This document shows, one piece after another, positions 2,020 through 57,872 of a stretch of 64,000 bases of DNA (position 1 is the first letter of the stretch; every line of letters starts with the position of its first letter). The DNA is taken from contig NZ_LR699166.1 in the NCBI RefSeq assembly GCF_902459525.1, forward strand, positions 1,872,501 through 1,936,500, given 5' to 3'. The position numbers and the translations under genes were made by a program. The notes under the pieces are model-generated. The model was not told where the DNA came from and ran no database searches. It saw only the letters and a program-made list of their open reading frames with translations. The DNA is from Sideroxydans sp. CL21. Its GTDB lineage: Bacteria > Pseudomonadota > Gammaproteobacteria > Burkholderiales > Gallionellaceae.

Positions 2020-3131
2020 TTTCCCTCCCGCGCTAGATCCTGCACCATCACTGTTTCGTGAGACGCTTTGGCCGCAGCTTTGGTCGAACGATTGTGCCAG
2101 GTGATGGCCACACCGGCAGCTGCGCCGGCTGCGACAGATGCACCCAGCATCGCAGTTGTTGCCGAGACCGGCATCGATAATGCTTTGTAGAATGGGCCTG
2201 CGTCCCAGAACTTCGGCTCCGAGCAGCCGATGCAGCCATGACCGGATTCGATGGGGAAACTTGTACCGTCATTCCACTTTGTCGTCGCACAGGCATTGTG
2301 GGTCACCGGCCCCTTGCAACCGAGCTTGAACAGGCACCAGCCATTCCTCGCTGCCTCGTCGTCGAAAGTCTCCGCGAACTTGCCCTGATCGTAGAATGGG
2401 CGGCGATAGCAACGGTCATGGATGGTCTCGCCGTAGAAGGATTTGGGCCGGCCCAGTGCATCCAGTTCGGGTATCCCGCCAAAAGTCAGGAAGTGGGCCA
2501 AAACACCGGTCATCACCACAGGGATGGGCGGACAGCCCGGCACGTTGATGATGGGTTTGTCCTTGACGATGTCGCTCACCGAAACGGCGCCCGTCGGATT
2601 TGGATCGGCCATGGGAATGCCACCGTAAGTCGCGCAAGTTCCTACCGCCACGATGGCTGCCGCGCCTTTGGCGGTTTCCACCAGCATATCGTGATTGCTA
2701 ATCCCGGCGATGACGGAATAGCCGGGATTGCCCATCGGGATCGAACCGTCGACGATCAACAGGTACTTGCCCTCGTTGTCCTTCATCGACTGCAAGCGGG
2801 CATGCTCGGCAGCCTCTCCGGAAGCAGCTTGCAGCGTATGGTGATAATCGAGGGAGATCATGTCGAAGATCAGGTTTTCCAGCGTCGGCGAATGCGAGCG
2901 AGTAATGGACTCTGTACAGCCGGTGCATTCCTGAAACGAGAGCCAGATCACGGATTGCCGTCGCGCTTTACTGATGGCCTCTGCCATCACGCTGGCCATC
3001 GCTGGCGGCAATGCCAACAACGCCGCCAACGAGGTACAGTATTGGAGAAATTCGCGTCGGGTTACCCCGCGCTGTGCCAAACCCTCACCCACTGTCCCAG
3101 GCAATATTTCCGTCTTCTGCGTTTTTTTCAT
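2016..3131 (-). CDS. hynS: [NiFe] uptake hydrogenase small subunit, Tat-exported
   Basis: The 371-residue protein starts with a long twin-arginine signal (TRREFLQ at about residues 24-30, then a hydrophobic stretch). The mature part has the proximal-cluster motif ECTGCTES (Cys 69 and 72), VGTCATYGG, GCPPIP and, near the C-terminus, the HDRCYRR, GWCLFKLGCKGP and GHGCIGCSEP clusters typical of group 1 enzymes. A hydrophobic helix near the end can anchor it in the membrane. It passes electrons from the Ni-Fe large subunit through three Fe-S clusters. It lies 71 bp after the protease gene and overlaps isp1. The large subunit is not between them, which fits the hynS-isp1-isp2-hynL order. Confidence 0.95.
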   Translation of the reverse strand: MKKTQKTEILPGTVGEGLAQRGVTRREFLQYCTSLAALLALPPAMASVMAEAISKARRQSVIWLSFQECTGCTESITRSHSPTLENLIFDMISLDYHHTLQAASGEAAEHARLQSMKDNEGKYLLIVDGSIPMGNPGYSVIAGISNHDMLVETAKGAAAIVAVGTCATYGGIPMADPNPTGAVSVSDIVKDKPIINVPGCPPIPVVMTGVLAHFLTFGGIPELDALGRPKSFYGETIHDRCYRRPFYDQGKFAETFDDEAARNGWCLFKLGCKGPVTHNACATTKWNDGTSFPIESGHGCIGCSEPKFWDAGPFYKALSMPVSATTAMLGASVAAGAAAGVAITWHNRSTKAAAKASHETVMVQDLAREGK

Positions 3132-3202
3132 GTCAACTCCCTGCGTTCAATGAACCACGGAATGTGCGAGAAATTTCGCGCGACCGATTTTGCTTACTCA
3201 AC

Positions 3203-3697
3203 TCACCCCATAAATACTTGCTGTGACCGACTCCCTGCGAAACGCCTGATTATTTCAGATGCGGTGCTGCATATTTCCGGCAGAGCTGCTGCTACCGAAG
3301 GTGTCAACGCATCTCCCCATCCAACAAAAGCTGGCTGAACACCTATCAGCGCGCGCTGTTGCGGCCAGTATCCGGTCAGGAGCGAGATGGCGCGCAGATC
3401 GAGCAATCCGACTTCATGCACGGTACTCTTCCGGTTCTCACCCAGAAAACGGTCCATTTCTTCGCCTTCGAAACTGTGCATCGTACCCGGCAATTCACCA
3501 AGTTCGGCCGCATCGATCACCAGCAGTGCGTCGCATTCGCTGATTGGTACAGCCAGCGTAAAAGACAACGTACCACCGTCGATAAAATCCATGTCCTCGC
3601 TCGTGCCGAATCGTGTTTCCAGTTCGTTCATGGCAACAATACCCACCCCTTCATCGGCGAGCAACGTGTTACCAATTCCCAGAACAAGTATCCTCAT
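3203..3697 (-). CDS. hupD: Hydrogenase maturation endopeptidase (HyaD/HupD/HybD family)
   Basis: This 164-residue protein starts MRILVLGIGNTLLADEGVG, the family signature. The three nickel-sensing/metal ligands known from HybD fit here as Glu16, Asp62 and His94. Enzymes of this family cut the C-terminal extension off the large subunit after nickel insertion. The start overlaps the stop of the HypC-like gene by four bases, so the two are translationally coupled. It lies upstream of hynS, so maturation and structural genes share an operon. Confidence 0.93.
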   Translation of the reverse strand: MRILVLGIGNTLLADEGVGIVAMNELETRFGTSEDMDFIDGGTLSFTLAVPISECDALLVIDAAELGELPGTMHSFEGEEMDRFLGENRKSTVHEVGLLDLRAISLLTGYWPQQRALIGVQPAFVGWGDALTPSVAAALPEICSTASEIIRRFAGSRSQQVFMG

Positions 3698-4014
3698 GCT
3701 GTCTGCTCCGGCTTGAACGGCAGGGACGGCGCAATATCAGGCAACTTTGAGGTGGTTGAGAAAACGGGGAAGTATGCATCCAGATTGGTCTCACCCTGCA
3801 TAGCTGCAGCAAGACCATCGAGCGCCAGGTTAATCTCGTCGGCAAGTTGAGGAGTGATTATTTCGCGAGCCTGTCCCAGAGTTGCGTAGACCCAATCGCC
3901 GGGAGAAAGCTCCTCAAGTAAAAGCGCATTCAGCCGTTCACGTCGACCACGTCCTTCGCACCAGGCGAATGCGCCATCGACTTCGATAACATGCATGGGT
4001 ATGCCAATACACAT
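3694..4014 (-). CDS. hypC: HypC/HupF-family hydrogenase maturation chaperone
   Basis: The start was set at the ATG giving MCIGIPMHVIEV, because the family needs an exposed cysteine as residue 2; an upstream in-frame start at 4035 would bury it. The protein has 106 residues, a little longer than typical HypC and close to HupF, with the usual beta-barrel chaperone core (SPGDWVYATLGQA) and a variable tail. HypC-type chaperones carry the Fe(CN)2CO unit and hold the large-subunit precursor. It is the first gene of the leftward operon, so the operon promoter should lie in 4015-4390. Confidence 0.88.
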   Translation of the reverse strand: MCIGIPMHVIEVDGAFAWCEGRGRRERLNALLLEELSPGDWVYATLGQAREIITPQLADEINLALDGLAAAMQGETNLDAYFPVFSTTSKLPDIAPSLPFKPEQTA

Positions 4015-4394
4015 AATTGAGCATCCTATCAGCAATACGTGACAATGACATGACCCATAAGGGTAAGACTAACGTCTCTGTCGTATCCGGATAAAGTTCC
4101 AGCGTATGTATTCTGCTTTAACGATAGTGAGTTACCTTCTTAACTCCTTTCAGATACAAGTCGACAACGAAGGAACCTGAGAAAATAGTACGATATTATT
4201 GATTGACCATCTATTGCATATATCGATTTTCTACCTTGTTATTGACATCGCCCATCAAGAGAAAAATACCGACGCTACTCAACATTGCACTTATTCTAAA
4301 TTCACCAGATACAATTAGTCGGGTATTTTGAATAAATCTTGTAACGTGAGAATCAATGCAAATAATATGTTATAAAAATAATAAGGAGGATGTC
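4015..4394. other. Divergent AT-rich intergenic region, presumed promoters
   Basis: About 380 bp separate the leftward hydrogenase operon from the rightward small membrane genes. The stretch is clearly more AT-rich than its surroundings. I looked for a sigma-54 GG-N10-GC pattern towards the hydrogenase genes and did not find a convincing one. A TATAAAAAT sequence near 4371 lies very close to the first small gene. No coding signal is seen. Confidence 0.5.
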
Positions 4395-4583
4395 ATGTTC
4401 AAACTGCCTATGGTAATCATCTATATGATCATCGCTTTCAACATCACCGCGTTTACTGCGATATTGCTATTAAATGTGCTGATCATCAATTCACTTATCG
4501 CCAAAATAATTGCATGCACATTGACAATCGGCGCTTGGGTTCTGGCATATATCAATCGGGACAAGGTTGTGACAATTTTTTGA
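4395..4583 (+). CDS. Small hydrophobic membrane protein, 62 aa
   Basis: An ideal AAGGAGG sits six bases before the ATG at 4395, which decides this start over an upstream in-frame one at 4356. The protein begins MFKLPMVIIYMI and forms two hydrophobic segments (about residues 3-30 and 33-53) before a short charged tail (NRDKVVTIF). No family is recognised. It is followed 78 bp later by an even smaller membrane ORF with an equally strong ribosome site, suggesting a two-gene transcript. Confidence 0.65.
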   Translation: MFKLPMVIIYMIIAFNITAFTAILLLNVLIINSLIAKIIACTLTIGAWVLAYINRDKVVTIF

Positions 4584-4661
4584 TTAAACGCCATGACAGC
4601 CTCGCTAGTTTGTCCAACAAATCGGCAGCACATTCAATGCCGAATCAAAAGGAGGTAAAGC

Positions 4662-4784
4662 ATGAATCCGATTGCTCAAGCATTCGGCATAGGAATCGTA
4701 CTAGGCATCATTCTTTTTTTTATACTTGCGCGTGCCGGCTTGATTGATAAATTGCTTTCATCAATGGACAAATGGTTCAAATAG
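4662..4784 (+). CDS. Tiny single-span membrane protein, 40 aa
   Basis: The sequence AAAAGGAGGTAAAGC precedes an ATG at 4662 and the ORF runs 40 codons to TAG. The protein (MNPIAQAFGIGIVLGIILFF and onward) has one transmembrane helix at about residues 5-23 and an amphipathic tail ending in KWFK. Ribosome site and composition argue for a real gene. No homologue is recognised. Its neighbours are the 62-residue membrane gene upstream and the ferredoxin-NADP reductase downstream. Confidence 0.6.
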   Translation: MNPIAQAFGIGIVLGIILFFILARAGLIDKLLSSMDKWFK

Positions 4785-4885
4785 GATTGACCGCCATATA
4801 TAAATACTTTCCCCGTGCACTAGTCATTGCATAACGCTGGTACAGTGGCAGACGTCACACTTTATTCGGACTGTGAATACAAATC

Positions 4886-6241
4886 ATGCGTGTTGCAATC
4901 ATCGGTTCCGGTCCTTCCGGTTTCTACGCTGCAGAGGCGCTGCTCAAACGCACCGATGAAGTAGTGCATGTCGACATGTTCGATCGCCTCCCAACTCCGT
5001 ATGGTCTTGTGCGTGGAGGCGTCGCGCCAGACCATCAGAATATCAAGGCAGTCACCCGCATTTACGAAAAGACCGCTGCACGCCCGACATTCAGGTTCTT
5101 TGGGAATGTTCGCCTCGGAAAAGATCTGACGGTGGATGACTTGCGTCGGCACTACCATCAGATCGTCTACGCCGTAGGTAACGAGGCCGACCGTCGACTC
5201 GGCATTCCGGGAGAAGGCGTACCCCGCTGTACACCCGCAACAGTCTTCATCGGCTGGTATAACGGGCATCCGGATTACCGTCATGCAAAGATCGATTTGT
5301 CGGTATCGCGCGTTGCAGTGGTGGGCAATGGCAATGTTGCTATCGACGCTGCACGGATTTTATTGCGAACACCCGCCGAACTTGAGAAAACAGATATTGC
5401 CGCGCACGCTTTGGAGGTTCTTCGTAAGAGTCAGGTGCGCGAAGTTTTTATTCTTGGCCGGCGCGGCCCCGAACAGGCTTCATTCACTTCGGTTGAACTT
5501 GAAGAGCTCGGCGAGATGGAAGATGCGGAACCTGTCGTCGCTCCAGGCGAACTTGTCGGCTTGATTATTCCGGAAGCCGCGCGCAGTAAGCAGCAGCAAA
5601 AGAATCTTAAAATTCTCCAGTCCTTTGCTGAGCGTCCACTTGGCACTAAATCCAAGAAACTTCACCTGCGATTTCTCGTCTCTCCGACAGAGGTAATCTG
5701 CGGTCCTGACGACGGCGTGTCGGGCCTCAAGCTCGAGAAAAACCGACTTGAGATGCAAGCAGACGGCACGGTTGCCGCGCGCGGTACCGGCGAAATTGAA
5801 GCTCTTGAAGTCGGAATGGTGCTGCCTGCAATCGGATTCAGCGCCGAGCGCATTTCCGGGGTTCCATACGACGAAAAAAAGCGGGTCATTGCCAACGAGG
5901 ATGGACGGGTCATCGACCCCGTCAGCCATTTAACGATCCCCAATGAATACGTCGTCGGCTGGGCACGCACCGGACCGCAGGGCCTCATCGGGTCGCACAA
6001 GGGCGCATCAGCGCATGTTGTTGCACACATGGTAACCGATGGAACCGGGCTCGCAGAAAAAGTGCTTCCAGATCCTGAGGCAATCATCAATTTGTTGCAC
6101 AAGCAGGGAGTGCAGGTAGTTTCATTCAATGACTGGAAACAACTCGATGATGTGGAAGTGGCACGCGGAGTGCGGCGCGAGTCTCCGCGCGACAAAATCG
6201 TTGATGTGGAGATAATGCTTTCTATCCTCGGCCAGCATTAA
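4886..6241 (+). CDS. fprA: Ferredoxin/adrenodoxin-NADP+ reductase family flavoprotein (FprA-like)
   Basis: The 451-residue protein starts MRVAIIGSGPSGFYAAEALL, an N-terminal FAD-binding GxGxxG fold. A second dinucleotide site is at VVGNGNVAIDAARIL, with GRRGPEQASF as in adrenodoxin reductase. The C-terminal GWARTGPQGLIGSHKG matches the conserved GW-(A/S)-R-GP-GVI region. Such enzymes move electrons between NADP(H) and a ferredoxin. It may be co-transcribed with the two small membrane genes, but no strong ribosome site precedes the ATG. Nothing in the sequence ties it to the hydrogenase beyond proximity. Confidence 0.9.
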   Translation: MRVAIIGSGPSGFYAAEALLKRTDEVVHVDMFDRLPTPYGLVRGGVAPDHQNIKAVTRIYEKTAARPTFRFFGNVRLGKDLTVDDLRRHYHQIVYAVGNEADRRLGIPGEGVPRCTPATVFIGWYNGHPDYRHAKIDLSVSRVAVVGNGNVAIDAARILLRTPAELEKTDIAAHALEVLRKSQVREVFILGRRGPEQASFTSVELEELGEMEDAEPVVAPGELVGLIIPEAARSKQQQKNLKILQSFAERPLGTKSKKLHLRFLVSPTEVICGPDDGVSGLKLEKNRLEMQADGTVAARGTGEIEALEVGMVLPAIGFSAERISGVPYDEKKRVIANEDGRVIDPVSHLTIPNEYVVGWARTGPQGLIGSHKGASAHVVAHMVTDGTGLAEKVLPDPEAIINLLHKQGVQVVSFNDWKQLDDVEVARGVRRESPRDKIVDVEIMLSILGQH

Positions 6242-6297
6242 GGAATTTTTGCCCGGTTGGGTGGAGAATATAAATTGTGTTTCGGTCTTTATTGTTA

Positions 6298-6783
6298 TCA
6301 GGTTGATTTCGGTTTCCGTTGCTCCGGTCGAAGTCTTGCCGCGAGCAGCTCATCGCCCGTATCTGCATCTATCACTTCGCCGTTCGCATTCTCCAACGGC
6401 TGCTCGTAATCGTTCCAGCCGCGCACCCCGGTCTTGAGCGAAACCACGTTGGTATACCCCATTAGCAGCAGCGTATCGGCAGCCAGTATCGAACGCTTGC
6501 CGGAACGACAAATGATTACGATCTCCTGTTCTCGCCGGGCTGCCAATTCCGGCACGGTCTCGTCGTAATCCCATTCGCAGGATTGCTCCAGCACGCCGCG
6601 CGGGACATTGATTGAACCTGGAATACGCAGCATGGCGAACTCAGAAGGTTCGCGCACATCGAGCAGCAGAGGTTTGTTGCCTGCAGCAATCGCTCTGCTC
6701 AAATCCCAGGGCATGATCTCCTTCACACGAAGAAGTGCTTCTGCAATCAAGTCGTCATAGCTTCCCATTCTATGTATTTCCAT
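6298..6783 (-). CDS. Rhodanese-like sulfurtransferase domain protein
   Basis: A single rhodanese domain contains LLLDVREPSEF and the active-site loop ICRSGKRS, with cysteine as the expected persulfide carrier. The linker CEWDYDETVPEL is typical of a beta/gammaproteobacterial subfamily. The open frame extends to 6858, but the extra N-terminal residues look unrelated. I prefer the ATG at 6783 (MEIHRMG) or the next at 6768 (MGSYDDL), which matches how relatives begin. It lies between fprA and the RND operon on the opposite strand to fprA. The physiological sulfur donor cannot be told from sequence. Confidence 0.85.
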   Translation of the reverse strand: MEIHRMGSYDDLIAEALLRVKEIMPWDLSRAIAAGNKPLLLDVREPSEFAMLRIPGSINVPRGVLEQSCEWDYDETVPELAARREQEIVIICRSGKRSILAADTLLLMGYTNVVSLKTGVRGWNDYEQPLENANGEVIDADTGDELLAARLRPEQRKPKST

Positions 6784-6881
6784 TTTTTTATTTGAACGAA
6801 TCAAGTGCTGCCATAAATGAACTGAATTATCCGAAATTCGCGGGTGTGAAACAAACATTTTGAAGGAAATGAATTTTCACA

Positions 6882-9800
6882 CTAGCTTGCGGTGGTGCCC
6901 GATAAAGGTTGCATTGCCGGACTTTGAATCACCGCTCTGTTCGATGCCAGGAGCATATACATGGCCGGTACCACGAACAGTGTAAACAGTGTGCCAATCG
7001 ACAGCCCGGTGAATATAACGAGGCCCATGGCATGGCGTCCGGCCGCACCGGCACCGAAGGCTATTACCAGCGGCACCACACCGAATACCATCGCGGCCGT
7101 CGTCATCAAAATGGGGCGCAAACGTATTACCGCCGCCCCTACAATAGCCTCAAGTTTGCCGAGGCCGGTGCTACGCAACTGATTTGCCACTTCAACTATA
7201 AGAATTCCGTGTTTGCTAATCAGGCCCATGAGCGTCACCAGCCCCACCTCGGTATAGATATTCATTGAAGAAAAGCCGAGGAAAATAAATATCATGGCAC
7301 CGAACAAAGCCAAAGGCACCGATACCAGAATTACGACAGGATCTCTGAAACTTTCAAACAGGGCCGCCAGCGCGAGAAATACAATAATGACTGCGAACAG
7401 CATGGTCGCCAGAAAGCTACCGGACTCTTGCATGTATTGTCGCGACTGGCCGGCGTAATCCACTGTGTAGCCGCTGGGTGCCACCTGATTGACGGTGTCG
7501 CGCATAAATTGCAGTACATCACCTTGCGACGACCCTGAAACGCCTGACAGCGTCACCGAATTCAGCTGCTGAAACCGTGTGATGGATTCCGCCACTACGC
7601 TATTTTTCAGGCTGGCTACTGTGCTTAGCGGAAACATTCCGCCGCCGGGTGCCTTGATATAGTAATCCAGTACCTGCGACGGGTTAAGACGGTCTGTTTG
7701 CAATACCTGCGGAATCACCTTGTAGGAACGTCCGCCAATGGAAAAATAATTGACATAGCCGCCGCCCAGCGCCGAGCTGAGTGCATTCCCCACATCCTGC
7801 TCAGTCATGCCCAGCGCGGTAACCTTTTCATGGTCTACAACAACGGTAGCTTGCGGTTTGTCAATTTTCAGATCGGCATCGATGAAGTAGAACTTGCCCG
7901 AGGCTTTCGCCTTTTCCAGCACTTGCTGAGCCATTTCGTTGAGGATTTCAAAGGGCTCGGTCGTGGTAATTACAAACTGCACCGGCAGGCCGGAAGAACC
8001 GGGCAAGGGCGGGAACTGAAAAGCAGCCACGCGAGCACCGGCCACTTTGTTCCAGCGCGCCTGGAGATCTTGTTGAATCTGATGGGCGCTGCGCGCACGT
8101 TCTTCCCAAGGCTTAAACAGTACGCCACCAATTCCCGCGTTCAGTGTTGGGACACCGGTCATCTGAAACATTTGACTGTATTCAGGCATGCTCTTGCCTA
8201 TTTTGAAAACCTGGTCGGCGTAGGTTTGCATCTGGTCAGCCGTTGCTGTTGGCGAACCAACAACCTGCGACAAAACGATGCCCTGATCTTCTTCCGGAGC
8301 CAATTCCGAGTTCGACATCTTGAACATCACTATCAGCACAACAAGCAACAGTCCACCCATCACTATCAAGACCGGCCATGTTTTAAGCAACCCGCGCAAC
8401 ACCTGTTCGTAAATCTTGCGGACCTTTTCGAAAACCGTGTCAATCGCATGTACAAAACGGCCACTGTCCTGTTCCGGTTTAAAAAAGCGCGAGCACATCA
8501 TGGGCGATAGCGTAAGTGCGACAACACCCGAGACCGCCACCGCTCCTGCGAGCGTGAAGGCAAATTCCGTGAACAGCGCACCGGTCAATCCGCCCTGAAA
8601 GCCGATGGGTACATACACCGCAATCAACACAACGGTCATCGCCAGAATCGGACTTCCAAGCTCCCTGGCCGCGATCAATGCCGCGTTCAATGGAGACGCG
8701 CCTTCTTTCATGTGGCGATCGACGTTTTCAACCACGATAATCGCATCATCAACCACCAGGCCGATAGCCAGCACCAGAGCCAGTAAAGTGAGAAGATTGA
8801 CGGAGTAGCCCAGCATCAGCATGATAAAAAAAGTGCCTATGAGCGAAAGCGGCATCGCGATGACCGGTACCAATACCGCGCGGAAGCTGCCAAGGAACAG
8901 ATAGATCACAACGGTGACGATCAGCAGCGCCTCGACCAATGTTTTGATCACCTCATTGATAGAGGTATTGATGAAATCAGTAGAGTCATAAACGATCTGA
9001 CCGGTAAGCCCCGTTGGCAATTGGGTGCGGATGACGGGGAACGCATCACGTACGTGTTTCGCAACATCGAGAATATTTGCTGCCGGCGCAACCTTGATGC
9101 CGATAAACACCGAGCGCACGCCGTTGAATGCAACGTTGAAGTCGTAGTTTTCCGAACCCAGCGTTACCGTTGCCACGTCTTCCAGATGCACGATGGCATC
9201 CCCATTTTGCTTGACTGCAAGCTTTTTGAATTCATCCACCGTATGCAGATCGGTACCCGCAGTCAAGGGAATGGTGACCATTTGGCCTTTGCTGGAACCG
9301 AGCGCAGCAAGAAAATTGTTGCTCACCAGGGCCGCACTGACATCGGCCGCAGTAATGCCATGTGCCGCCATCTTGTTGGAGTCAAGCCATGCACGCAATG
9401 CAAACTGACGGGCGCCAAGAATTTCTGCAGTCTGCACACCTTCGACAGAGTCCAGCTTGGGTTTAACTACGCGCAATAGGTAATCGGTAACGTTGTTTGT
9501 CGGCAAAGTATCACTGTAGAAGCCAATGTACATGGCATCTGTCGTTTGTCCGGTTTGCACGGTTAATATGGGCACCTGCGCCTGGACGGGAAGCTGATTC
9601 TTGACCGAATTGACCTGGGTATTGATTTCGGTCAGTGCGCGGTTGGCATCGTAGTTCAACCGCAGAGTTGCGGTAATGGTTGAAATTCCACTGCTGCTGG
9701 AAGAAGACAAATAGTCGATGCCTTGCGCCTGCGCGATGGCAGATTCAAGCGGTTGGGTAATAAAGCCCGCGACCGTCTGTGCGTCAGCGCCATAATAGGC

Positions 9801-22116: not shown

Positions 22117-22258
22117 CAGGCTGTTGAAAAACGTCGCGAGGATGGTCAGATGCAAGGCGCACGGCACGTAGCGACCGAGACATACCTTTTAGGTAGGCGA
22201 GGAAGCGAGTACCGCGCAACGCCGCAGATGACCACCGCAGTAGTTTTACAACAGCCTG
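22117..22258. mobile_element. MITE-like element with 16-bp terminal inverted repeats
   Basis: The 142-bp segment begins CAGGCTGTTGAAAAAC and ends GTTTTACAACAGCCTG; the ends match in 15 of 16 positions as inverted repeats. The interior is GC-rich and has no ORF. No clear target-site duplication is seen. It fills most of the mlaE-thrS spacer and could affect thrS expression. Similar short elements are dispersed in many betaproteobacteria, but only this one copy is in the window. Confidence 0.7.
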
Positions 22259-22300: not shown

Positions 22301-23083
22301 TCACTCCAACATGCCGAGGTAGGCTATCAAGGCATCCAGCGTGAACACGAACAGCAGGCTTTGCAGCACGGCCTTGATGGCGACCTTGGGCACTTCGGTC
22401 ACCGAAGGCTGGGCTTGCATGCCGTTGTAGCAGGAGATGGTGGAGATGGCCAAACCGAACAGGCAACCTTTGACGCCGACTACGACGAATTCGGAGAGTT
22501 TGACTGTTTGCAGGAATCGCCCGACCTGATCAAGGTAAGACACATTCTGAAACATGGCACTGATCGCCAGTCCGCCGCCGATGGCGACAACCTGAAAATA
22601 AATGGTGAGGGCCAGTACGGCCAGCGTCACACCGGCGATACGCGGCACCAGCAGGTAATCCTGCGGCGGAATGCCCATGCGGATCAGGCTGGTCATCTCG
22701 TGGCGCGTCTTCATCAGCGCCAGTTCGGAGGCGATGGCGGCGCTGCTGCGGGCGATGATGATGATGGCGGCAAACAAGGGGCCGACTTCGCGCACCACGG
22801 TCCAGATCAATATCTTCACTGTCAGTTCGCTGTCCCCGCCGACCAGCGAGGTAATCTGGGTGATGACCAGTGCGCCGCTCAGCAGCCCGAACACGGCAAC
22901 GATGCGCAATGCCTCAACGCCCGTGAAAAATATCTGGCGGTAAAACACTGCGTTCACGGGGGCGATGCGCAATACACGCAGATGCGTAAAGGCATACCAA
23001 AGCAGTTGTGAAGCACCAGCCACAGTCTGGCGCATCCGCGTCATCTTCAGCCAGGCGAAAAATTTCGGCCAGAATGCAAACAT
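22301..23083 (-). CDS. mlaE: MlaE-type ABC lipid transporter permease
   Basis: The 260-residue protein has five or six membrane segments and the family core REVGPLFAAIIIIARSSAAI followed by ELALMKTRHEMTSLIRMGIPPQDYLLVPR, matching the MlaE/YrbE permease signature. In Mla systems it forms the membrane channel under a hexameric MCE protein. It starts one base inside the stop of the cyclase-like gene (TGATG), making it the last gene of a five-gene operon that also encodes the MCE protein and a degenerate ATPase. Confidence 0.9.
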   Translation of the reverse strand: MFAFWPKFFAWLKMTRMRQTVAGASQLLWYAFTHLRVLRIAPVNAVFYRQIFFTGVEALRIVAVFGLLSGALVITQITSLVGGDSELTVKILIWTVVREVGPLFAAIIIIARSSAAIASELALMKTRHEMTSLIRMGIPPQDYLLVPRIAGVTLAVLALTIYFQVVAIGGGLAISAMFQNVSYLDQVGRFLQTVKLSEFVVVGVKGCLFGLAISTISCYNGMQAQPSVTEVPKVAIKAVLQSLLFVFTLDALIAYLGMLE

Positions 23084-24873
23084 CAGATTGCGGCCAGCAA
23101 CGGAGGGGTCCAGCCGTACACATGGAACGAAGCATCATTTACCGCATGCTCCCCGCAGTCGATCAAATCGCCCGAATTCTCCACCGCTTTTGCCACAGAG
23201 TCAGAACACACCACGGGATATTTCAAAGTCTTGGTCAGCCTTTCCAGCCCGGCGGTCAGGCTCACTGCTTTGCCGATAGCCGTGTATTCATGCCGCAACT
23301 CTGAACCGATGTGCCCGATGATCGCCTCCCCTGCGTGCAGTGCAATTCCGATCTCGATAGGTGCGATATCTTGCTCCTGCAAGCGCGCATTGATATGACG
23401 CAGGCGCAGCAGCATTTCCTGCGCCGCTTCGAGCGCATTCTTCTCCGGACATTCCAGTGCCTGCGGTGCGCCAAAGAAGGCCATGATTCCGCCTCCGACG
23501 AACTTGTCCACCGTGCCTTTATACTGGTGGATGGCCACAGTCATCTCGGAAAAATAGTCGTTGAGCAATGACACTACTTCTTGCGGCAGACATTTCTCAC
23601 TGCGCTCACTGAAATCGTGAATATCCGCGAACAGGATGCATACCCGGATACGTGCGCCGACCAGTCCGGATCGGATATTGCCAGCCATGATCTCATGCAG
23701 TACGTCCTGGCTGACGTAGCTGCCAAATGTGCCGCGCAGCCATTTGCGTTGTCGCAGTTGCAACACACCCTCAAAAGCCAAACGTGCCAGAAAGGAAAAC
23801 AGGCCGGAAAGCAGGATGCCCCCTATCGGCAGGTACGTACCCTGCTCCATTAGCCATGTTGAAACGGATACTAGCAATAGCGGGAAAGCGGCCACAGCAA
23901 CAAGTTTTAACCAGCCTGTGCGTCCCAGCCAGAATAAGGCTGCAAGCAGCGTCAATGCCAATACTGCATAGTCGTTCGTTTCGCGTATCATGCCGCCGCC
24001 CAGCATCGAGCGCAGCATTTGCGCTTGCATCAGTACGGCGGGGATGCGATGCCGGGACGGGTCCCAGGCGGCCAGCGGGACAGGCGAATTCACTCGTTCG
24101 CCCAGCGGCGACACCACGCCCAGCAGCACAGGTTTGCCGCCGAAAATCCCGGTCAGTTGCTCCGCATTGCCTTGTACCTGCCATTCCAGTACTTTGGCAA
24201 AAGGGATGTACTCAAACGGCTGTCCTGCCCCGAAATCCACCAGCCCCGTGCCCGGTTTTGCATTGCCCAGATGCTCGGCCATTTTCTCGACCAGCATGGA
24301 GCCGTGCGCATTCACCGTACACCGGTTGGGATCGAAGTGACGCACTACGCCATCATCGTCCGGGCAAACCATCACCGACGCCAGCGTGTTGCCCCCTGAA
24401 GCTGCAACGACTGGCTCATACACTTTGCGGAACTCCCCGTTGACTTCCACCGTCTGCGCCAGCACCAACGGCGTCTGTGCCCGGGCGGTCTGCAGGCCTT
24501 GCAGCAGGCTTTGATCGTATTGCGGAATCAGAAACTCATATGAGCGCTCGGGCAACACGATATCCAGACCGACCACGGCGGGTTTGGCGATCGCCATCGC
24601 TTGCAGGAATTTGCCCAGATAAGGATGCCACAAGGCTAAAGGTTCATTGAACGTTTTATACGATTCCTCGTCGATGCCGACGATAACGACATCATTTGTC
24701 ACCGGATGTGCTTCGTAACGATGCAGGAAACCGAATTGATCGTCCAGCACGCTACGGCTCAGTGCCTTGCCCGCCTGGGAAATATCCAGTAGCAATGCCG
24801 TCAACAGGCAGATACACAAGCCCAGCAGCAGCCTGATTTTCGGATCGTTCAGCCGCGTCAGCGCTTCCATCAC
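23083..24873 (-). CDS. CHASE2-domain class III cyclase homologue, catalytic site degenerate
   Basis: The 596-residue protein has an N-terminal helix (about 14-30), a periplasmic CHASE2 sensor domain (about 40-310), three helices, and a cytoplasmic class III cyclase domain (about 405-590). The first metal aspartate is present (ILFADIHDFS). The usual K-x-x-GD-x-IMAxFG reads KFVGGGIMAFFG, so the second metal aspartate is glycine. The usual IGDxVNxxxRLE reads IGKAVSLTAGLE, so the specificity Asp and the transition-state Asn and Arg are all replaced. It is therefore probably unable to make cAMP or cGMP and may act as a sensor or scaffold. It is coupled to mlaE by a one-base overlap. Confidence 0.85.
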   Translation of the reverse strand: MMEALTRLNDPKIRLLLGLCICLLTALLLDISQAGKALSRSVLDDQFGFLHRYEAHPVTNDVVIVGIDEESYKTFNEPLALWHPYLGKFLQAMAIAKPAVVGLDIVLPERSYEFLIPQYDQSLLQGLQTARAQTPLVLAQTVEVNGEFRKVYEPVVAASGGNTLASVMVCPDDDGVVRHFDPNRCTVNAHGSMLVEKMAEHLGNAKPGTGLVDFGAGQPFEYIPFAKVLEWQVQGNAEQLTGIFGGKPVLLGVVSPLGERVNSPVPLAAWDPSRHRIPAVLMQAQMLRSMLGGGMIRETNDYAVLALTLLAALFWLGRTGWLKLVAVAAFPLLLVSVSTWLMEQGTYLPIGGILLSGLFSFLARLAFEGVLQLRQRKWLRGTFGSYVSQDVLHEIMAGNIRSGLVGARIRVCILFADIHDFSERSEKCLPQEVVSLLNDYFSEMTVAIHQYKGTVDKFVGGGIMAFFGAPQALECPEKNALEAAQEMLLRLRHINARLQEQDIAPIEIGIALHAGEAIIGHIGSELRHEYTAIGKAVSLTAGLERLTKTLKYPVVCSDSVAKAVENSGDLIDCGEHAVNDASFHVYGWTPPLLAAI

Positions 24874-24877
24874 GCCC

Positions 24878-25675
24878 TCACTTCAACGCAGTTGCCGCAA
24901 TGCGTGCCGCCCTGTCACGGCACTGCGCGGCTTGTTCGGCATGACCCAGCTTTTCGTGTGCCTGCGCCGACAACAGCAGATCCTGGCGTATCTTTTCCGG
25001 CAAGCCCAGCAACTTGTCGATGGCCAGCGCTTCTTCCGACAGGCGCAGTGCGGTGTCGTACTCGCCCTTCATAAGCCTGGCAGAAGCCGTCAGGCGCAAG
25101 GAGTTGGCGTATTCCAATTGCGAACTGCCTTTATTTTCCGAGGTGGCATGCTCGCTCCATTGCAGGGCTTTATCCGCATCGTTCGCTCGCAATGCGATGC
25201 CGGCTCGCGCGTTGTCTATCACGCCGGCAAGCGTGCAATCCGGCCCGCAATACCCGGCAGATTTTTCCACCCAGGCCGTGGCGCCGGCCACATCGTTCTC
25301 CTGCAAGCGCAACAGGGACTTTTGCACTGCCGCAGCGGCAAGCTGCGCAGGCGGATAGCGGAGTGCCTTGTCTTCCAGCAGACTGTCCAGGTAGCGTTCA
25401 GCCAGTGCGGGATTGCCCAGAACCTGATACACCCTGGCGAGATTGAGCATATTGATGGCGATGCCGTTCACGTTCTCGATCGCGACATCCAACTGCAGCG
25501 CGTTCCCGTACAGGTCGGCTGCGGATTGATACTCGCCGCGCAGGAATGCGCGCTGCGCCCGCTGGTTGAATTCCGTAGCCCGTTCCTGCCGTGCACTGCG
25601 CATTTCTTCCACATGGCTGCAGGCAGACAGCAGCACAAGGCAGCACAGGATCGCAATGTGTGAGCGGAAGCCCAT
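24878..25675 (-). CDS. TPR-containing lipoprotein
   Basis: The ATG at 25675 (MGFRSHIAILCCLVLLSAC) gives a compact lipoprotein signal with the acylated cysteine near residue 19. The rest is helical with tetratricopeptide-like units (QRAFLRGEYQSAADLYGNAL, NLARVYQVLGNPALAERYL and a later LMKGEYDTALRLSEEALAI). It is likely a periplasm-facing lipid-anchored scaffold. Gaps of 11 bp to mlaD and 4 bp to the cyclase-like gene place it inside the Mla-like operon. This resembles the accessory lipoprotein position (MlaA/PqiC-like) but not in sequence. Confidence 0.82.
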   Translation of the reverse strand: MGFRSHIAILCCLVLLSACSHVEEMRSARQERATEFNQRAQRAFLRGEYQSAADLYGNALQLDVAIENVNGIAINMLNLARVYQVLGNPALAERYLDSLLEDKALRYPPAQLAAAAVQKSLLRLQENDVAGATAWVEKSAGYCGPDCTLAGVIDNARAGIALRANDADKALQWSEHATSENKGSSQLEYANSLRLTASARLMKGEYDTALRLSEEALAIDKLLGLPEKIRQDLLLSAQAHEKLGHAEQAAQCRDRAARIAATALK

Positions 25676-25686
25676 TCTCGTTCCCC

Positions 25687-26634
25687 TCACGGCTGCCTCG
25701 GCGCAACGTAGCCGTCAACCGGAAGCATCTGCTCTTCCGGTTTGGAGAACATGCCATTGAACAGCCAGGACTTCTTCACGCCCCCCAGAGTCTCCTGTCC
25801 GTCCTGAACCAGGGAATTGGTATTGCGCACCAGTGCAGGAATCTCTGCGGCTGATTCATTGGTGATTTTCTTGATGTCTGCCGTGGCCGACTGAACATTG
25901 CTCAGGGTCGTATCGGCTTTGTCCACCAGCTTGGGAATTCCCTTATCCAGAGTTTCCAGATTTGAATTGACGCGATCCAATGCCTTGTCGATCTTTACGT
26001 ACGCCCCTTCCAGCTTCTTGTTACTGCTTGCGCCAAGTTGCGTGAATTGATTCACGGTCTCCCGAAAACTTCCCGAAGCCTGGTTCAGGTTCTTCAGTGT
26101 TTGCTGGACGTCGCCATTCGGATTGTTGACGGAAGAAGTGATCTGGTGAACGTCGCTCAGGATAGGCTGCAACTGCGCCGCCAGCGTTTCGACGACGGTA
26201 CTGGCATCTTGTCCCCGTTCGAATGCCAGCACGCTATTTTGCGTCACCTGTTTCACCTGCTGCGAGCCGGGAATGATCTCCACCACGCTCTCGCCGACCA
26301 GCGCTTCCTTGATGAGTCTGGCCTTGGCATCCTGCCCGATCAGGTGCACGTATTCGTTATCCAGCGCCACCTTGACCTGCACTGTCGCGTTGGGCTGCAT
26401 GCTCACATCCTGCACGCTGCCGACCTTGAAGCCGATGAACTTGACCGCCATGCCCTTGCTCAAACCCTGTGCGTTGGGAGTGAAAAAGTAGATCGAGGTA
26501 CTGCGATGGAAATAATCCTGCCTGGACGCGATCATGGCCAGCACGAGCAGCATGACGCCGATTGCACCCAGCATGAATTGCCTGGTGCGCTTTTCGATGT
26601 TCTGCAATCTCAAATTGTAGGTGGCTAGCTTCAT
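25687..26634 (-). CDS. mlaD: MlaD-like MCE-domain lipid-binding protein
   Basis: The 315-residue protein has one N-terminal membrane helix (about 20-40) and an MCE domain with NAQGLSKGMAVKFIGFKVGS and EALVGESVVEIIPGS, followed by a long helical region (about 130-290) rich in polar residues. MCE proteins form hexameric rings that bind phospholipids in the periplasm. The long helical tail is closer to the extended MCE proteins of betaproteobacteria than to the short E. coli MlaD. It lies between the degenerate ATPase and the TPR lipoprotein. Confidence 0.9.
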   Translation of the reverse strand: MKLATYNLRLQNIEKRTRQFMLGAIGVMLLVLAMIASRQDYFHRSTSIYFFTPNAQGLSKGMAVKFIGFKVGSVQDVSMQPNATVQVKVALDNEYVHLIGQDAKARLIKEALVGESVVEIIPGSQQVKQVTQNSVLAFERGQDASTVVETLAAQLQPILSDVHQITSSVNNPNGDVQQTLKNLNQASGSFRETVNQFTQLGASSNKKLEGAYVKIDKALDRVNSNLETLDKGIPKLVDKADTTLSNVQSATADIKKITNESAAEIPALVRNTNSLVQDGQETLGGVKKSWLFNGMFSKPEEQMLPVDGYVAPRQP

Positions 26635-26647
26635 CCCGGAATTTTGG

Positions 26648-27202
26648 TTATAGATGAATCACAAGCTGCTTCGGATCGTCCTTGTCGCTGTATTCCTCGA
26701 AGCTTACCAGCGCCGACGTACGGAATGGGAAGTATAAACGGAATACCTTGTCGAATTTGACCACGCGCGCCAATTCCTTGCGCGACAGCCCCTCGTTCAT
26801 GGAATCGTAAATAATCAGCTCCGGACTCATCAACATGGCTCGCACGAAACCGACCAGCCTCTTTTCGTATAACGACAATTGATCGGGCAGTTTAAGCAGC
26901 AGTTCGGACACGGCACTTTCGTCTAGCGCACCACACTGGACAAGCAACCGGGCCACGTGGTCTTCAAGTTTTCCGGCGACTTCGATGCCATGATACTGCA
27001 CCGGCAGGGTGATGTTTTCCCATACCCGCAGATTGCTGATCAAACCGCCGTTGTGCGGCACGATGACCACACCGGACTGATCGCCCAGATTTTGAAGTAG
27101 CGCAGAGCGCTGGGATTCGGAACGGACGACAAGACAGTATGAATAGCCTGCTTGCAGCAGGGCCTGGGTACCTTCTTCTCCATGCAGACTGAGTGTAAAC
27201 AC
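26648..27202 (-). CDS. MlaF-like ABC ATPase homologue lacking Walker A and catalytic glutamate
   Basis: The 184-residue ORF (GTG start at 27202; an in-frame stop lies about 25 bases upstream) aligns by eye with the ABC ATPase of Mla systems. Where Walker A (GPSGSGKST) should be it has VVRSESQRSALL. The Q-loop area (VPHNGGLISNLRVWENITLP) is recognisable. The signature LSGG reads LSLYE, and the Walker B end reads LIIYDSMNEG with Ser instead of Glu. There is no H-loop and the protein is about 70 residues shorter than MlaF. It cannot hydrolyse ATP in the usual way. It is the first gene of the operon, in frame and without internal stops, so it is kept as a protein. Confidence 0.75.
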   Translation of the reverse strand: MFTLSLHGEEGTQALLQAGYSYCLVVRSESQRSALLQNLGDQSGVVIVPHNGGLISNLRVWENITLPVQYHGIEVAGKLEDHVARLLVQCGALDESAVSELLLKLPDQLSLYEKRLVGFVRAMLMSPELIIYDSMNEGLSRKELARVVKFDKVFRLYFPFRTSALVSFEEYSDKDDPKQLVIHL

Positions 27203-45040: not shown

Positions 45041-45844
45041 TCAGGCTTGAGTAGGTTTGCCTCCTTTCCCTGTCGGCGTTTTTGACCTTTCCGGCATTGG
45101 CTTCGGGTCGCGGTAACTCTCTCCATCCAGCACCACGCGATACGCACCGTGGCGCAATCGGTCCAGCGTCGCTGCGCCGATCATTTTATTTGCGGCGAAT
45201 GCTTCACCCCATTCATCAAAGTCGAGATTGCTGGTCAGAATGGTGGCGGCACGCTCGTAGCGTTCGGCGATCAAGTCATGGAAGTCTTCATCTTCAGGCG
45301 AACGCAAGGGTTTGAGTCCGAAATCGTCAATGATCAGCAGGGGCACTTTGACCAGGGATTTAAATCGCCGCGCATAATTGCCAGTCGCCTGAGCTGCGCG
45401 CAAGCTGCTCAGGAGCTGGGTTTGCGTGATGAACAGCACGTCATAGCCCTGGCGTGCAGCCGCATGACCCAGCGACTGCGCCAGGTGACTTTTGCCGGTG
45501 CCGCACGGACCCACAATCAATACGGCGACTTTCTCTTCAATGAAACGGCAAGTCGCCAGATCATGGACTGCCGAGCGGTTCAGATTGGGAAGTCGGTCGA
45601 AATCGAATCCTTCCAGTGTTTTTTGGTTACGGAAGCTTGCACGTCGTAGTCGCATATCCAGTTTCTTTTGCTCCCGCCGGGCGACTTCGTCATGAATCAG
45701 CAAGCTGAGGAAATCGGTGTAGGCCAGCTTGCGGTCGATGGCTTCGCGGTTGCGGGCCTCGAGTGAGTCCAGAATGCCGGACAGGCGCAGTTGTTTGAGC
45801 AGGGGTGTCAGTTCGGGAATTGGATGCATGATGGTAGTCCTCAT
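45041..45844 (-). CDS. istB: IS21-family helper ATPase IstB
   Basis: 267 residues with a DnaC/DnaA-like AAA+ core: Walker A VGPCGTGKSHLAQ, Walker B LLIIDDFGL, and the sensor region AATILTSNLDFDEW. IstB binds DNA and assists IstA in target choice. Its ATG overlaps the istA stop by four bases. Confidence 0.95.
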   Translation of the reverse strand: MRTTIMHPIPELTPLLKQLRLSGILDSLEARNREAIDRKLAYTDFLSLLIHDEVARREQKKLDMRLRRASFRNQKTLEGFDFDRLPNLNRSAVHDLATCRFIEEKVAVLIVGPCGTGKSHLAQSLGHAAARQGYDVLFITQTQLLSSLRAAQATGNYARRFKSLVKVPLLIIDDFGLKPLRSPEDEDFHDLIAERYERAATILTSNLDFDEWGEAFAANKMIGAATLDRLRHGAYRVVLDGESYRDPKPMPERSKTPTGKGGKPTQA

Positions 45845-47397
45845 TGAAGAATGGTTTGGGTATCGCGGCAGAATCGGCCGCCTTGGGTGTATGTGGTGGC
45901 CAGTGCGTCGAAGGCTGCCAGCGGCGCGAGCTGATCCAGTCCCTTCTCAAGAATGATCTTGACCACCTTGTAGCCCGGCGTGCCGTAATGGTTGGCGCGC
46001 TGGCAGGCCGCTTCCAATCTGGCTGCGCCGTATTTCTGTTTGAGCCGCAGCACGCCCTGTACAGCACGCATCTTGATCAAGACATGGTCGCCGAACATGG
46101 CATGCACCATGGCATGGCAGGCCGGACCAATCTGCAAGGCCGATTTCAAACACCACTGTGTGTCCTGCATTTGCCACGCCTGCGCTTCGGGCGGCATATG
46201 GTCGGTCACGGTGTCGCGCAGCCCTTTCCCCGTCAGTCGCACATGGCTGGCAACCGCTTCGTGTTCGCGGTACAGCGTCACCATGGTGCCGGTCGCCTTC
46301 AACCACAGGTCGCATCCGATCAGCCGGAACGGCACCGAATAGTGGTTGGTCTCGTATTGGACGTGCGCGTCACGGTGGACTTTGACCTTGGCCCAGCTGG
46401 CCAACTCAGGTGGAACGCTGGGCAAAGCATTGAGCAGGCTTTTCTCCACCTCGGCGAAGCGTTTGAGAGGGGCTTCGCGGGTCGTGCCGTGAATGCGGTT
46501 GCCCGCCTCGTTCATCACCCACGCCTGCAACTGGCGGTTGGCGTCATCCAGATCGCGGAATTCGCGCAGCGGCAGGAAACTGCCCTTGATATATTTGACG
46601 CCTGCCTCAACGATTCCTTTTTTTTGTGGATCCCGTGGAGGACAAGGATCGATTTTGAACGCATATCCTTCCGCACATTCGGCATACGCCCGTTGCACAT
46701 CCGGCTCATAGACGCAGGCTTTGGTGATGGCGCACTTGGCATTGTCGATGATGACGCGTGAGGGTACGCCCGAGAACGACTCAAACGCACGCCGATGGCA
46801 GCCCAGCCATGTCGCCACGGTCTGGTCGCGGACAAACTCGGCATACTGGTGACGCGACCAGCACAAGGTCATCACGAAGAACCAGGTCTTGAAGATCTCG
46901 CCGGTGTACACATCGGTGATGAGCGGACCAGCACCGAAATCAACCTGAACCGCTTCGCCAGGCTTGAACGTCAGGCGTAGCGGAACATCCGGCTGCTGCA
47001 GGGAAACGAGTTGCCCCAGAAAGCGATACATCGAGGAATAACTGCCGGTAAAACCGTGATTGCGCACCAGCGTGGCGTGGATGGTGGTGCCCTGAATACC
47101 GGCCGCATGCCACTTGGTGATCTGATCACGCCAGGGTTCCAGCGTTGAAATACAGCTGACAGGCAATGCCTCCCTGCGCTCAAACAGCGTGGACAGCACT
47201 CCGTCATCGGGCAAAGGAAACTCGGGGGCAAGCCAGCCACGTTCGCTGGCGATCTCGCGAACCTGTGCGAGTTTTTTGCGTCCCATCGTTTTGGACCGGG
47301 CAATATCCCGATCAGAATCGCCTTGGCGCATGCGCACCAAAACATTTCGGTACTGATACATCTCGAACCTCCGTTTAGTCACAACCTCTCCCGGCAA
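45841..47397 (-). CDS. istA: IS21-family transposase IstA
   Basis: 518 residues: N-terminal helix-turn-helix (VRMRQGDSDRDIARSKTMGR), an rve/DDE catalytic core with VQVDFGAGP, VIIDNAKCAI and KKGIVEAGVKYIKGSF supplying the D, D and E, and a C-terminal Mu-type domain. It starts about 180 bp inside the right end of the IS. Confidence 0.95.
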   Translation of the reverse strand: MPGEVVTKRRFEMYQYRNVLVRMRQGDSDRDIARSKTMGRKKLAQVREIASERGWLAPEFPLPDDGVLSTLFERREALPVSCISTLEPWRDQITKWHAAGIQGTTIHATLVRNHGFTGSYSSMYRFLGQLVSLQQPDVPLRLTFKPGEAVQVDFGAGPLITDVYTGEIFKTWFFVMTLCWSRHQYAEFVRDQTVATWLGCHRRAFESFSGVPSRVIIDNAKCAITKACVYEPDVQRAYAECAEGYAFKIDPCPPRDPQKKGIVEAGVKYIKGSFLPLREFRDLDDANRQLQAWVMNEAGNRIHGTTREAPLKRFAEVEKSLLNALPSVPPELASWAKVKVHRDAHVQYETNHYSVPFRLIGCDLWLKATGTMVTLYREHEAVASHVRLTGKGLRDTVTDHMPPEAQAWQMQDTQWCLKSALQIGPACHAMVHAMFGDHVLIKMRAVQGVLRLKQKYGAARLEAACQRANHYGTPGYKVVKIILEKGLDQLAPLAAFDALATTYTQGGRFCRDTQTILQ

Positions 47398-57795: not shown

Positions 57796-57872
57796 TGGTA
57801 GGCGCGATTGGACTCGAACCAACGACCCCCACCATGTCAAGGTGGTGCTCTAACCAGCTGAGCTACGCGCCT
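57796..57872 (-). tRNA. tRNA-Val (anticodon GAC)
   Basis: 77 nt with encoded CCA. Acceptor AGGCGCG/CGCGCCT; anticodon stem CCACC/GGTGG with loop TTGACAT, anticodon GAC; T-arm with GGTTCGAGTCC. It is the presumed integration target of the adjacent element. Confidence 0.97.

Follow-up and report, generated by a model that had tools for sequence, protein, structure and literature searches.

The window, a stretch of 64,000 nucleotides from the genome of Sideroxydans sp. CL21 taken at its full length, carries an operon of the Mla lipid-transport type in which the place of the ATPase MlaF is occupied by a degenerate protein, called psF throughout the paper. The sequences and structure models point to an MCE conduit that probably transfers lipids independently of ATP, with MlaF having evolved into the nucleotide-blind docking or gating subunit psF. 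In the proposed arrangement psF would be seated on the cytoplasmic coupling helix of the permease MlaE and would hold or gate the MlaE-MCE complex. The MCE ring with its helical tail would build a conduit through the periplasm in the direction of the outer membrane, where the TPR lipoprotein of the operon would be its partner. Lipids would move down their gradient or with another energy source, and no ATP would be hydrolysed in the complex. The CHASE2 protein encoded in the same operon would serve as an envelope sensor; it is a catalytic cyclase in other lineages and probably acts here by contact or is losing its role.

psF Has an ABC-ATPase Fold Without the ATPase Motifs

The structure model of psF showed the fold of an ATP-binding cassette (ABC) ATPase with a predicted local distance difference test score (pLDDT) of 91.7, and MlaF of 6xbd stood in the first row of the structural alignment (VIA-align). 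In the Pfam search psF matched ABC_tran only, below the threshold (17.7 bits versus a cut-off of 25); it was assigned to the ABC ATPases from the family profile and the fold. The NCBIfam model for MlaF orthologues (NF008809) gave 14.0 bits, with a curated cut-off of 441. In an alignment to the canonical MlaF of the same genome, Walker A, the Q-loop Gln, the signature, the Walker B Glu and the H-loop His were all absent from psF: the Q-loop Gln is replaced by His and the H-loop His by Glu, the signature position reads QLSLYEKRL, and YDE has become YDS. A mis-called start that would hide a P-loop was ruled out, as the open frame has 191 codons from stop to stop and a few residues are missing at most. 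ATP hydrolysis by psF is very unlikely.

Directly after the Q-loop position lies the conserved core of the family, GGLISNLRVWENITLP. Among 65 psF the residues L58 and N63 were found in all, N57 and E62 in 64 and W61 in 63. We infer that this core forms the docking groove for the coupling helix of MlaE. It was also considered that psF binds a nucleotide or another phosphate ligand in a non-canonical manner and moves with the ligand. The fold is intact, Lys or Arg occupies the column of the P-loop Lys in 30 of 62 psF, and Gln is found at the Q-loop column in at least one member (L121). Against this, the second and third Gly of the P-loop are mostly Glu or Asp (the second in 44 of the 63 psF with a letter there), the signature is gone, the Walker B Glu is left in only 4 of 65 psF, and many psF miss the stretch after the P-loop. 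Ligand binding of this kind is thus very improbable.

The Degenerate ATPase Is Conserved in at Least Three Phyla

A protein search with psF found it in three genomes of the same genus, at 89, 78, and 64% identity. Other families of the order gave weaker matches, and there the gene belongs to MlaE-psF-MCE-TPR operons. A collection of species genomes was then scanned with a single motif, [ILV][SNA]NL[RK][VLT]WEN, and the best 80 of 118 relatives were kept. These span Gallionellaceae, Sulfuricella, other betaproteobacteria, Nitrospirota and the Geobacter group, with further single records from Nitrospinota (adjoining Nitrospirota in the tree and perhaps mistitled), Syntrophorhabdales and others, and psF is kept in at least three phyla. 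Within the fetched flanks of these best 80 loci MCE was present in 80, TPR in 76, MlaE in 62 and the CHASE2-cyclase in 27. Neither Walker A nor a signature of the type LSGG[QEMH] was found in any of the 80 psF. We are aware that the absence of Walker A from all 80 may be biased by the scan motif, and a search starting from MCE served as a check independent of psF.

This search with an MCE profile, blind to psF, yielded 26 of 300 genomes of the order at E values up to 1e-30, the window genome included. The psF profile also matched 20 of the 26; all 20 psF were read and none had a Walker A. Four of the remaining six (G068, G151, G188, G249) encode a psF of 183-241 amino acids without the motifs, and G191 has a remnant of 153 amino acids. 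The last, G094 (L207/L210), encodes MlaE, MCE and TPR in an operon that lacks an ATPase gene, and the coupling helix of this MlaE is degenerate. In the 14 kb around the operon, the only Walker-A-like open reading frame above 150 amino acids was one of 317 amino acids about 4 kb past the TPR gene; this operon is a possible fully ATPase-free end point. A Walker A ATPase inside the operon was found in none of the 26 genomes. The first-pass annotation of the window had described the ATPase slot as filled by a degenerate protein, and this description stands well beyond the one genome, with the motifs absent and the protein constrained (see below).

The psF profile (A4) is in part a general ABC profile and at E 1e-8 matched all 299 genomes of the phylum sample; only psF of the window scored above 108 bits (178.8 bits; scoring covered up to ten candidates in each genome). 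All later uses of the profile applied thresholds of 1e-31 to 1e-34. At 1e-31 the profile missed psF in five genomes in which it was later read by eye, so the counts obtained with it are lower bounds. The Nitrospirota sample gave 13 matches in 100 genomes, 11 of them read without P-loop and one with P-loop (G604), G612 being outside the reading. For the phylum of Geobacter, 8 matches were obtained in 99 genomes: 3 without P-loop, 1 with GPLGSGKA, and 4 with P-loop.

MlaE was missing from the fetched flank in 18 of the 80 loci. Thirteen of these are Geobacter-type psF-MCE-TPR operons (L103, L113, L114, L117, L118, L121, L122, L125, L126, L128, L129, L133, and L134), and the remainder include short contigs. 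Six genomes with such operons of the Geobacter group were searched and contained 3-4 MlaE each, and the permease for these operons may lie elsewhere in the genome. The psF of L077, from a metagenome-assembled genome (MAG) titled Bordetella parapertussis, is nearly identical to that of L078, a Betaproteobacteria MAG; the title of L077 may be wrong.

Selection on the Operon and Origin of psF

Median ratios of non-synonymous to synonymous substitution rates (dN/dS) in the clade of the window were 0.113 for psF (65 pairs), 0.126 for MCE, 0.134 for MlaE, 0.196 for TPR and 0.173 for the cyclase gene, with 0.107 for its cyclase part. They were calculated by the Nei-Gojobori method, which is crude at such dS, and the medians include only pairs with a dS of 0.1-1.6. 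By this measure psF is under purifying selection. Simple decay of a redundant Mla operon might be suspected from the stepwise loss of cyclase residues in Gallionellaceae, with the gene gone or nearly gone in two relatives, and from the psF remnant in one other genome and its absence in another. The open frames, the medians of 0.11-0.20 across the five genes and the retention of psF in at least three phyla leave this explanation hardly any credit. Decay of psF was rejected on dN/dS and wide retention, and decay of the cyclase is unlikely given the value for its cyclase part; the argument of the first-pass annotation from intact frames was thus borne out.

Relatives that keep the P-loop occur at lower scores in Nitrospirota and the phylum of Geobacter. 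In L190 and L195 a P-loop occurs together with an altered signature, and the Walker B Glu is replaced by Asp or Gln; L196 and L197 have P-loop, altered signature and DE, and L194 has kept the P-loop and lost signature and Walker B Glu. The P-loop of L193 reads GPLGSGKA. The operons of L190 and L193-L197, with their P-loop-bearing or half-degenerate MlaF, are useful as evolutionary intermediates. A tree of MlaE was calculated from 76 rows without use of the ATPase; 25 loci, near-duplicates and a few others, had been removed by hand, and loci without a suitable MlaE also dropped out. It placed the 71 P-loop-less rows on one side of a single branch with a support of 91 in the Shimodaira-Hasegawa-like approximate likelihood ratio test (SH-aLRT), opposite L190, L194, L195 and two canonical MlaE. 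The simplest reading of this tree is that the P-loop was lost once and the P-loop-less form then spread.

MlaE, MCE and the TPR Lipoprotein as Parts of a Proposed Conduit

The permease matched the Pfam family MlaE (PF02405, E 4.5e-47, above the cut-off), and 7ch8_G, the permease of P. aeruginosa MlaFEBD, was its best solved match. MlaE of MlaFEDB makes contact with MlaF through a coupling helix that lies between its second and third transmembrane helices (PMC7790496). The coupling-helix motif of the window, RSSAAIASELALM, follows the pattern R[SA]x6E[LI]xx[MIL], which was kept in 92 of 94 distinct MlaE from 102 loci, three P-loop-bearing relatives included. The two MlaE without it belong to G094, which has no psF, and G191 with its remnant psF. 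This co-loss, two cases noticed after the fact, fits a role of psF as partner of the coupling helix.

The MCE protein matched Pfam PF02470 (MlaD) in one stretch (E 1.2e-15, above the cut-off). In the model a transmembrane helix is followed by the MCE domain and then by about 118 residues of helical tail, which would measure about 18 nm if extended (arithmetic at 1.5 angstrom per residue). A loose lipobox pattern was found in 63 of 76 TPR homologues, and the TPR lipoprotein is presumably sorted to the outer membrane.

ATP-Independent Transfer or a Borrowed ATPase

The first-pass annotation had proposed an ATP-independent or borrowed-ATPase machine. One of these two is the natural reading because the degenerate ATPase is constrained and conserved beyond this genome. 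The second, complete mlaF that it had suggested looking for was found. The genome, one contig of 3.77 Mb, has two MlaE and two MlaD matches, and its second mla operon encodes an MlaF with Walker A and signature followed by MlaE and MlaD, with MlaC- and MlaB-like genes recognised by reading only.

Several points weigh against an ATP-independent conduit. At least two MlaE matches were present in all 39 tested genome handles with psF (38 distinct genomes, G062 and G313 giving the same places), one of the matches in G307 being a fragment. A further 18 genomes included 17 with at least two MlaE; the exception, G789, has one MlaE and a P-loop-bearing relative. MlaF could therefore be borrowed, since the second operon of the window genome has an intact MlaF and all 39 handles have at least two MlaE. 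The co-loss of coupling-helix motif and psF in G094 and G191 could be explained equally by a loss of MlaF there. The tail of MCE comes from a low-confidence part of the model (from residue 141 on, block pLDDT 41-78), lipids are taken to be the cargo on the strength of family membership, and in the MlaE tree the lower branches reach SH-aLRT 85-91 with long rows, the deep branches not being starred.

If borrowing took place, the canonical MlaF of the second operon would power MlaE, and psF would be a regulator, placeholder or assembly factor. Besides the MlaE counts, this is favoured by the Walker A and signature of the genome's own MlaF (a second MlaF was read in the window genome only), by the retained coupling-helix motif of MlaE, and by the MceG shared by Mce1 and Mce4 as a known case of ATPase sharing (PMC9947336). 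On the other hand, MlaF would have to displace psF, whose core would be expected to form the contact with MlaE, and a heterodimer of MlaF and psF would presumably have no working site, as P-loop and signature are both lacking on the psF side. In the two operons with no psF or only a remnant of it, MlaE also lacks the coupling-helix motif; this point is weakened, as the canonical MlaF of those two genomes lay outside the comparison, and it would speak against a borrowed MlaF only if G094 and G191 still have one. Taken together, we consider borrowing unlikely and the conduit with psF as docking or gating subunit the probable case.

The CHASE2 Cyclase Homologue and Cyclic-Nucleotide Genes

The fourth gene encodes a CHASE2 domain (PF05226, E 6.6e-22, 78.7 bits versus a cut-off of 26.3) and a Guanylate_cyc domain (E 4.2e-16), the best solved matches of the cyclase part being the adenylate cyclases 6fht and 2w01. 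The two metal-binding Asp, the Asn and the Arg are what we take to be the catalytic residues of a class III cyclase. The window protein shows D461 to G, N538 to S and R542 to G, and it lacks what an active cyclase would presumably need; D417, K457, and T531 are kept. The loss of catalytic residues noted in the first-pass annotation was therefore real, though incomplete.

In Gallionellaceae this degeneration is stepwise. L057 shows one change (Asn kept, Lys for Arg), L058-L065 have Ser for Asn and mostly Lys for Arg, and L066-L070 have lost nearly all catalytic residues. L071 retains a match of only 66 amino acids and L072 no trace of the gene, and both have retained psF, MCE, TPR and MlaE. G191 shares the gene order of the window, and its cyclase has degenerated further still. 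The copies read from outside Gallionellaceae, G191 excepted, keep the catalytic residues. Copies with both Asp, Asn and Arg stand beside the operon, in differing positions, in L078, L084/L088/L089, L098/L099/L102, L182/L183 and L184-L186. In the homologous operons the degeneracy of psF was conserved, while the cyclase is degenerate in some lineages only. The control by a CHASE2 sensor proposed in the first-pass annotation must be qualified, with the protein catalytic elsewhere and lost in L072. The two "pseudoenzymes", as they appear from sequence, have different histories: the cyclase was probably once an active partner and is here non-catalytic yet still constrained.

The 27 CHASE2-cyclase loci among the 80 comprise 19 of the Gallionellaceae group, 2 other betaproteobacterial ones, and 6 of the Nitrospirota or Geobacter type; in a separate count, 19 genomes contained only 1-9 CHASE2 matches each. 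In L098, L099, and L102 (about 2700-8430) the psF operon is preceded by a cyclic AMP (cAMP) phosphodiesterase-like protein, a catalytic CHASE2 cyclase and a FecR-TPR protein. The first of these, of the metallo-beta-lactamase fold and matching PDEase_II and about equally Lactamase_B_2, lies between cyclase and MlaE; the same type of protein precedes MlaE in L107, and weaker relatives were found some kb off in L040, L041, L120 and L123. The gene sets of L098, L099, L102 and L107 may form a cyclic-nucleotide module for the lipid transporter. In eight loci (L083, L084, L087, L089, L090, L091, L095, and L097) a BrkB/YihY membrane protein of about 400 amino acids with a domain for binding cyclic nucleotide monophosphates (cNMP) is encoded no more than a few kb from the psF operon. 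Pfam assignments were made on one member each of the PDEase-like and BrkB proteins (the L084 copy for BrkB). The link of cyclic-nucleotide genes with psF operons looks real.

The psF complex could accordingly be imagined as a sensor or regulator instead of a transporter, for example as an envelope-stress relay tied to cyclic-nucleotide signalling. In line with this are the recurrence of CHASE2 cyclases, four Geobacter-type loci in which MlaE is directly preceded by a protein resembling class II cAMP phosphodiesterases, and the eight loci with BrkB and cNMP-binding protein. Most loci, however, have no recognised cyclic-nucleotide gene, L071 and L072 have kept the rest almost without a cyclase, and the conserved cores of MlaE and MCE are kept, which makes a pure sensor improbable. 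A wider reading of the ATP-independent conduit is possible and tentative: a branch of ABC transporters in several phyla would have abandoned ATP, its nucleotide-binding subunit left only as a docking or gating piece, with lipid gradients driving the MlaE-MCE conduit and with its opening coupled in many lineages to envelope sensing by CHASE2 cyclases, cAMP phosphodiesterases or cNMP-binding proteins, and the Gallionellaceae cyclase would be a non-enzymatic sensor subunit.

Operon Layout and Genomic Setting

Coordinates and frames confirmed five tightly spaced genes in the order psF, MCE, TPR lipoprotein, CHASE2-cyclase homologue and MlaE, all open and all on the minus strand (Table 1), as first annotated. 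A gap of 13 nucleotides separates psF and MCE, MCE and TPR overlap by 4, a gap of 4 follows between TPR and cyclase, and the reported one-base overlap of cyclase and permease was found as TGATG at 23083.

Table 1. Features of the psF operon (positions in the window).
Feature	Position	Strand	Basis or remark
psF, pseudo-MlaF; 184 amino acids, GTG start	26648..27202	-	ABC-ATPase fold without nucleotide-binding motifs
Pseudo-P-loop VRSESQRSA (residues 26-34), place of Walker A	27101..27127	-	Alignment to own MlaF
Family core GGLISNLRVWENITLP (residues 52-67)	27002..27049	-	psF alignments
LSLYEKR (residues 109-115), place of ABC signature	26858..26878	-	Alignment to own MlaF
Walker B relic LIIYDS (residues 129-134), catalytic Glu to Ser	26801..26818	-	Alignment to own MlaF
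MCE (MlaD-like) protein, 315 amino acids	25687..26634	-	Transmembrane helix 8-38, MCE domain 46-123, helical tail about 144-261
TPR lipoprotein, 270 amino acids, lipobox LSAC-S	24878..25690	-	Pfam TPR and translation
CHASE2 sensor and class III cyclase homologue, catalytic residues lost	23083..24873	-	Pfam, alignment
Codon 461 (Gly), second metal-binding Asp lost	23491..23493	-	Alignment
Codons 538 (Ser for Asn) to 542 (Gly for Arg), transition-state residues lost	23248..23262	-	Alignment
MlaE permease, 260 amino acids	22301..23083	-	Pfam; best solved match 7ch8_G
Coupling-helix motif RSSAAIASELALM (MlaE residues 112-124)	22712..22750	-	Kept in 92 of 94 distinct MlaE

The operon is flanked by a UvrD/Rep-like and a ThrS-like gene, named from their translations, and the nearest named relatives are Sideroxydans, Sideroxyarcus and other Gallionellaceae. 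Pfam and NCBIfam searches gave no match to MlaB (STAS) or MlaC among the five operon proteins, and MlaA is likewise not among the five genes. Promoter and terminator scans found sites no more numerous than in shuffled sequences. A short repeat lies between mlaE and thrS (22151-22226); elsewhere the genome has seven more partial copies of it that are 68-86% identical. At 45041-47397 and 56414-57631 of the window, an IstA/IstB pair of the IS21 type and an integrase-like open reading frame near a tRNA-Val (57796-57872) were recognised from translations only; they point to an integrated element.

Comparison With Known Systems

Transport by MCE and Mla systems is itself known; new is an Mla-like MCE system with a conserved pseudo-ATPase. 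Our literature search, limited to open-licence PMC papers, found no report of a degenerate MlaF family, and a large survey of Mla mentions "uncertainty of MlaF annotations" (PMC10665443). The ATP requirement and the lipid direction of Mla are disputed: reports exist both of ATP-independent transfer from MlaD to MlaC and of ATP-dependent transport that is mainly retrograde, and newer sources favour ATP-driven retrograde transport (PMC10212509). A natural MlaE-MCE lineage that discarded ATP hydrolysis and kept the ATPase fold would be a ready-made experiment on the role of the ATPase in energy supply, gating or assembly. Such a clade of ABC transporters, with a pseudo-ATPase throughout and with intermediates preserved, would also be unusual in itself.

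With the canonical Mla system of E. coli, Pseudomonas and Acinetobacter (MlaFEDB with MlaC and MlaA), the operon of the window has in common MlaE with its coupling helix, MCE and the ABC fold. It differs in the lost ATPase motifs, the long MCE tail, the TPR lipoprotein and the lack of MlaA, MlaB and MlaC, and thus falls outside this system. The three-component transenvelope systems MlaEFD of Veillonella parvula and Mpc of Brucella likewise combine MlaE with an MCE protein with a long helical tail, but their MlaF/MpcF is described as conserved, whereas the ATPase of the window is dead (PMC10665443, PMC12436622). The outer-membrane lipoprotein of Mpc, MpcA, resembles PqiC, while the lipoprotein of the window is a TPR protein (PMC12436622). 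The mycobacterial Mce1 and Mce4 systems appear to share one ATPase, MceG, which is active, and the available portion of the source describes no pseudo-ATPase in their operons (PMC9947336). With CHASE2 class III adenylyl cyclases the fourth protein shares both domains, and differs in the lost second metal-binding Asp, Asn and Arg. PqiABC and LetAB, MCE systems whose inner-membrane protein is free of an ATPase domain, are functional analogues (PMC12436622). They are characterised by a PqiA/LetA inner-membrane protein together with a multi-MCE protein. The membrane protein of the window, unlike theirs, is an MlaE permease (PF02405) accompanied by a dead ATPase and an MCE protein with one MlaD stretch, which sets the operon apart from these systems. 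PqiA and LetA belong to a different family from MlaE.

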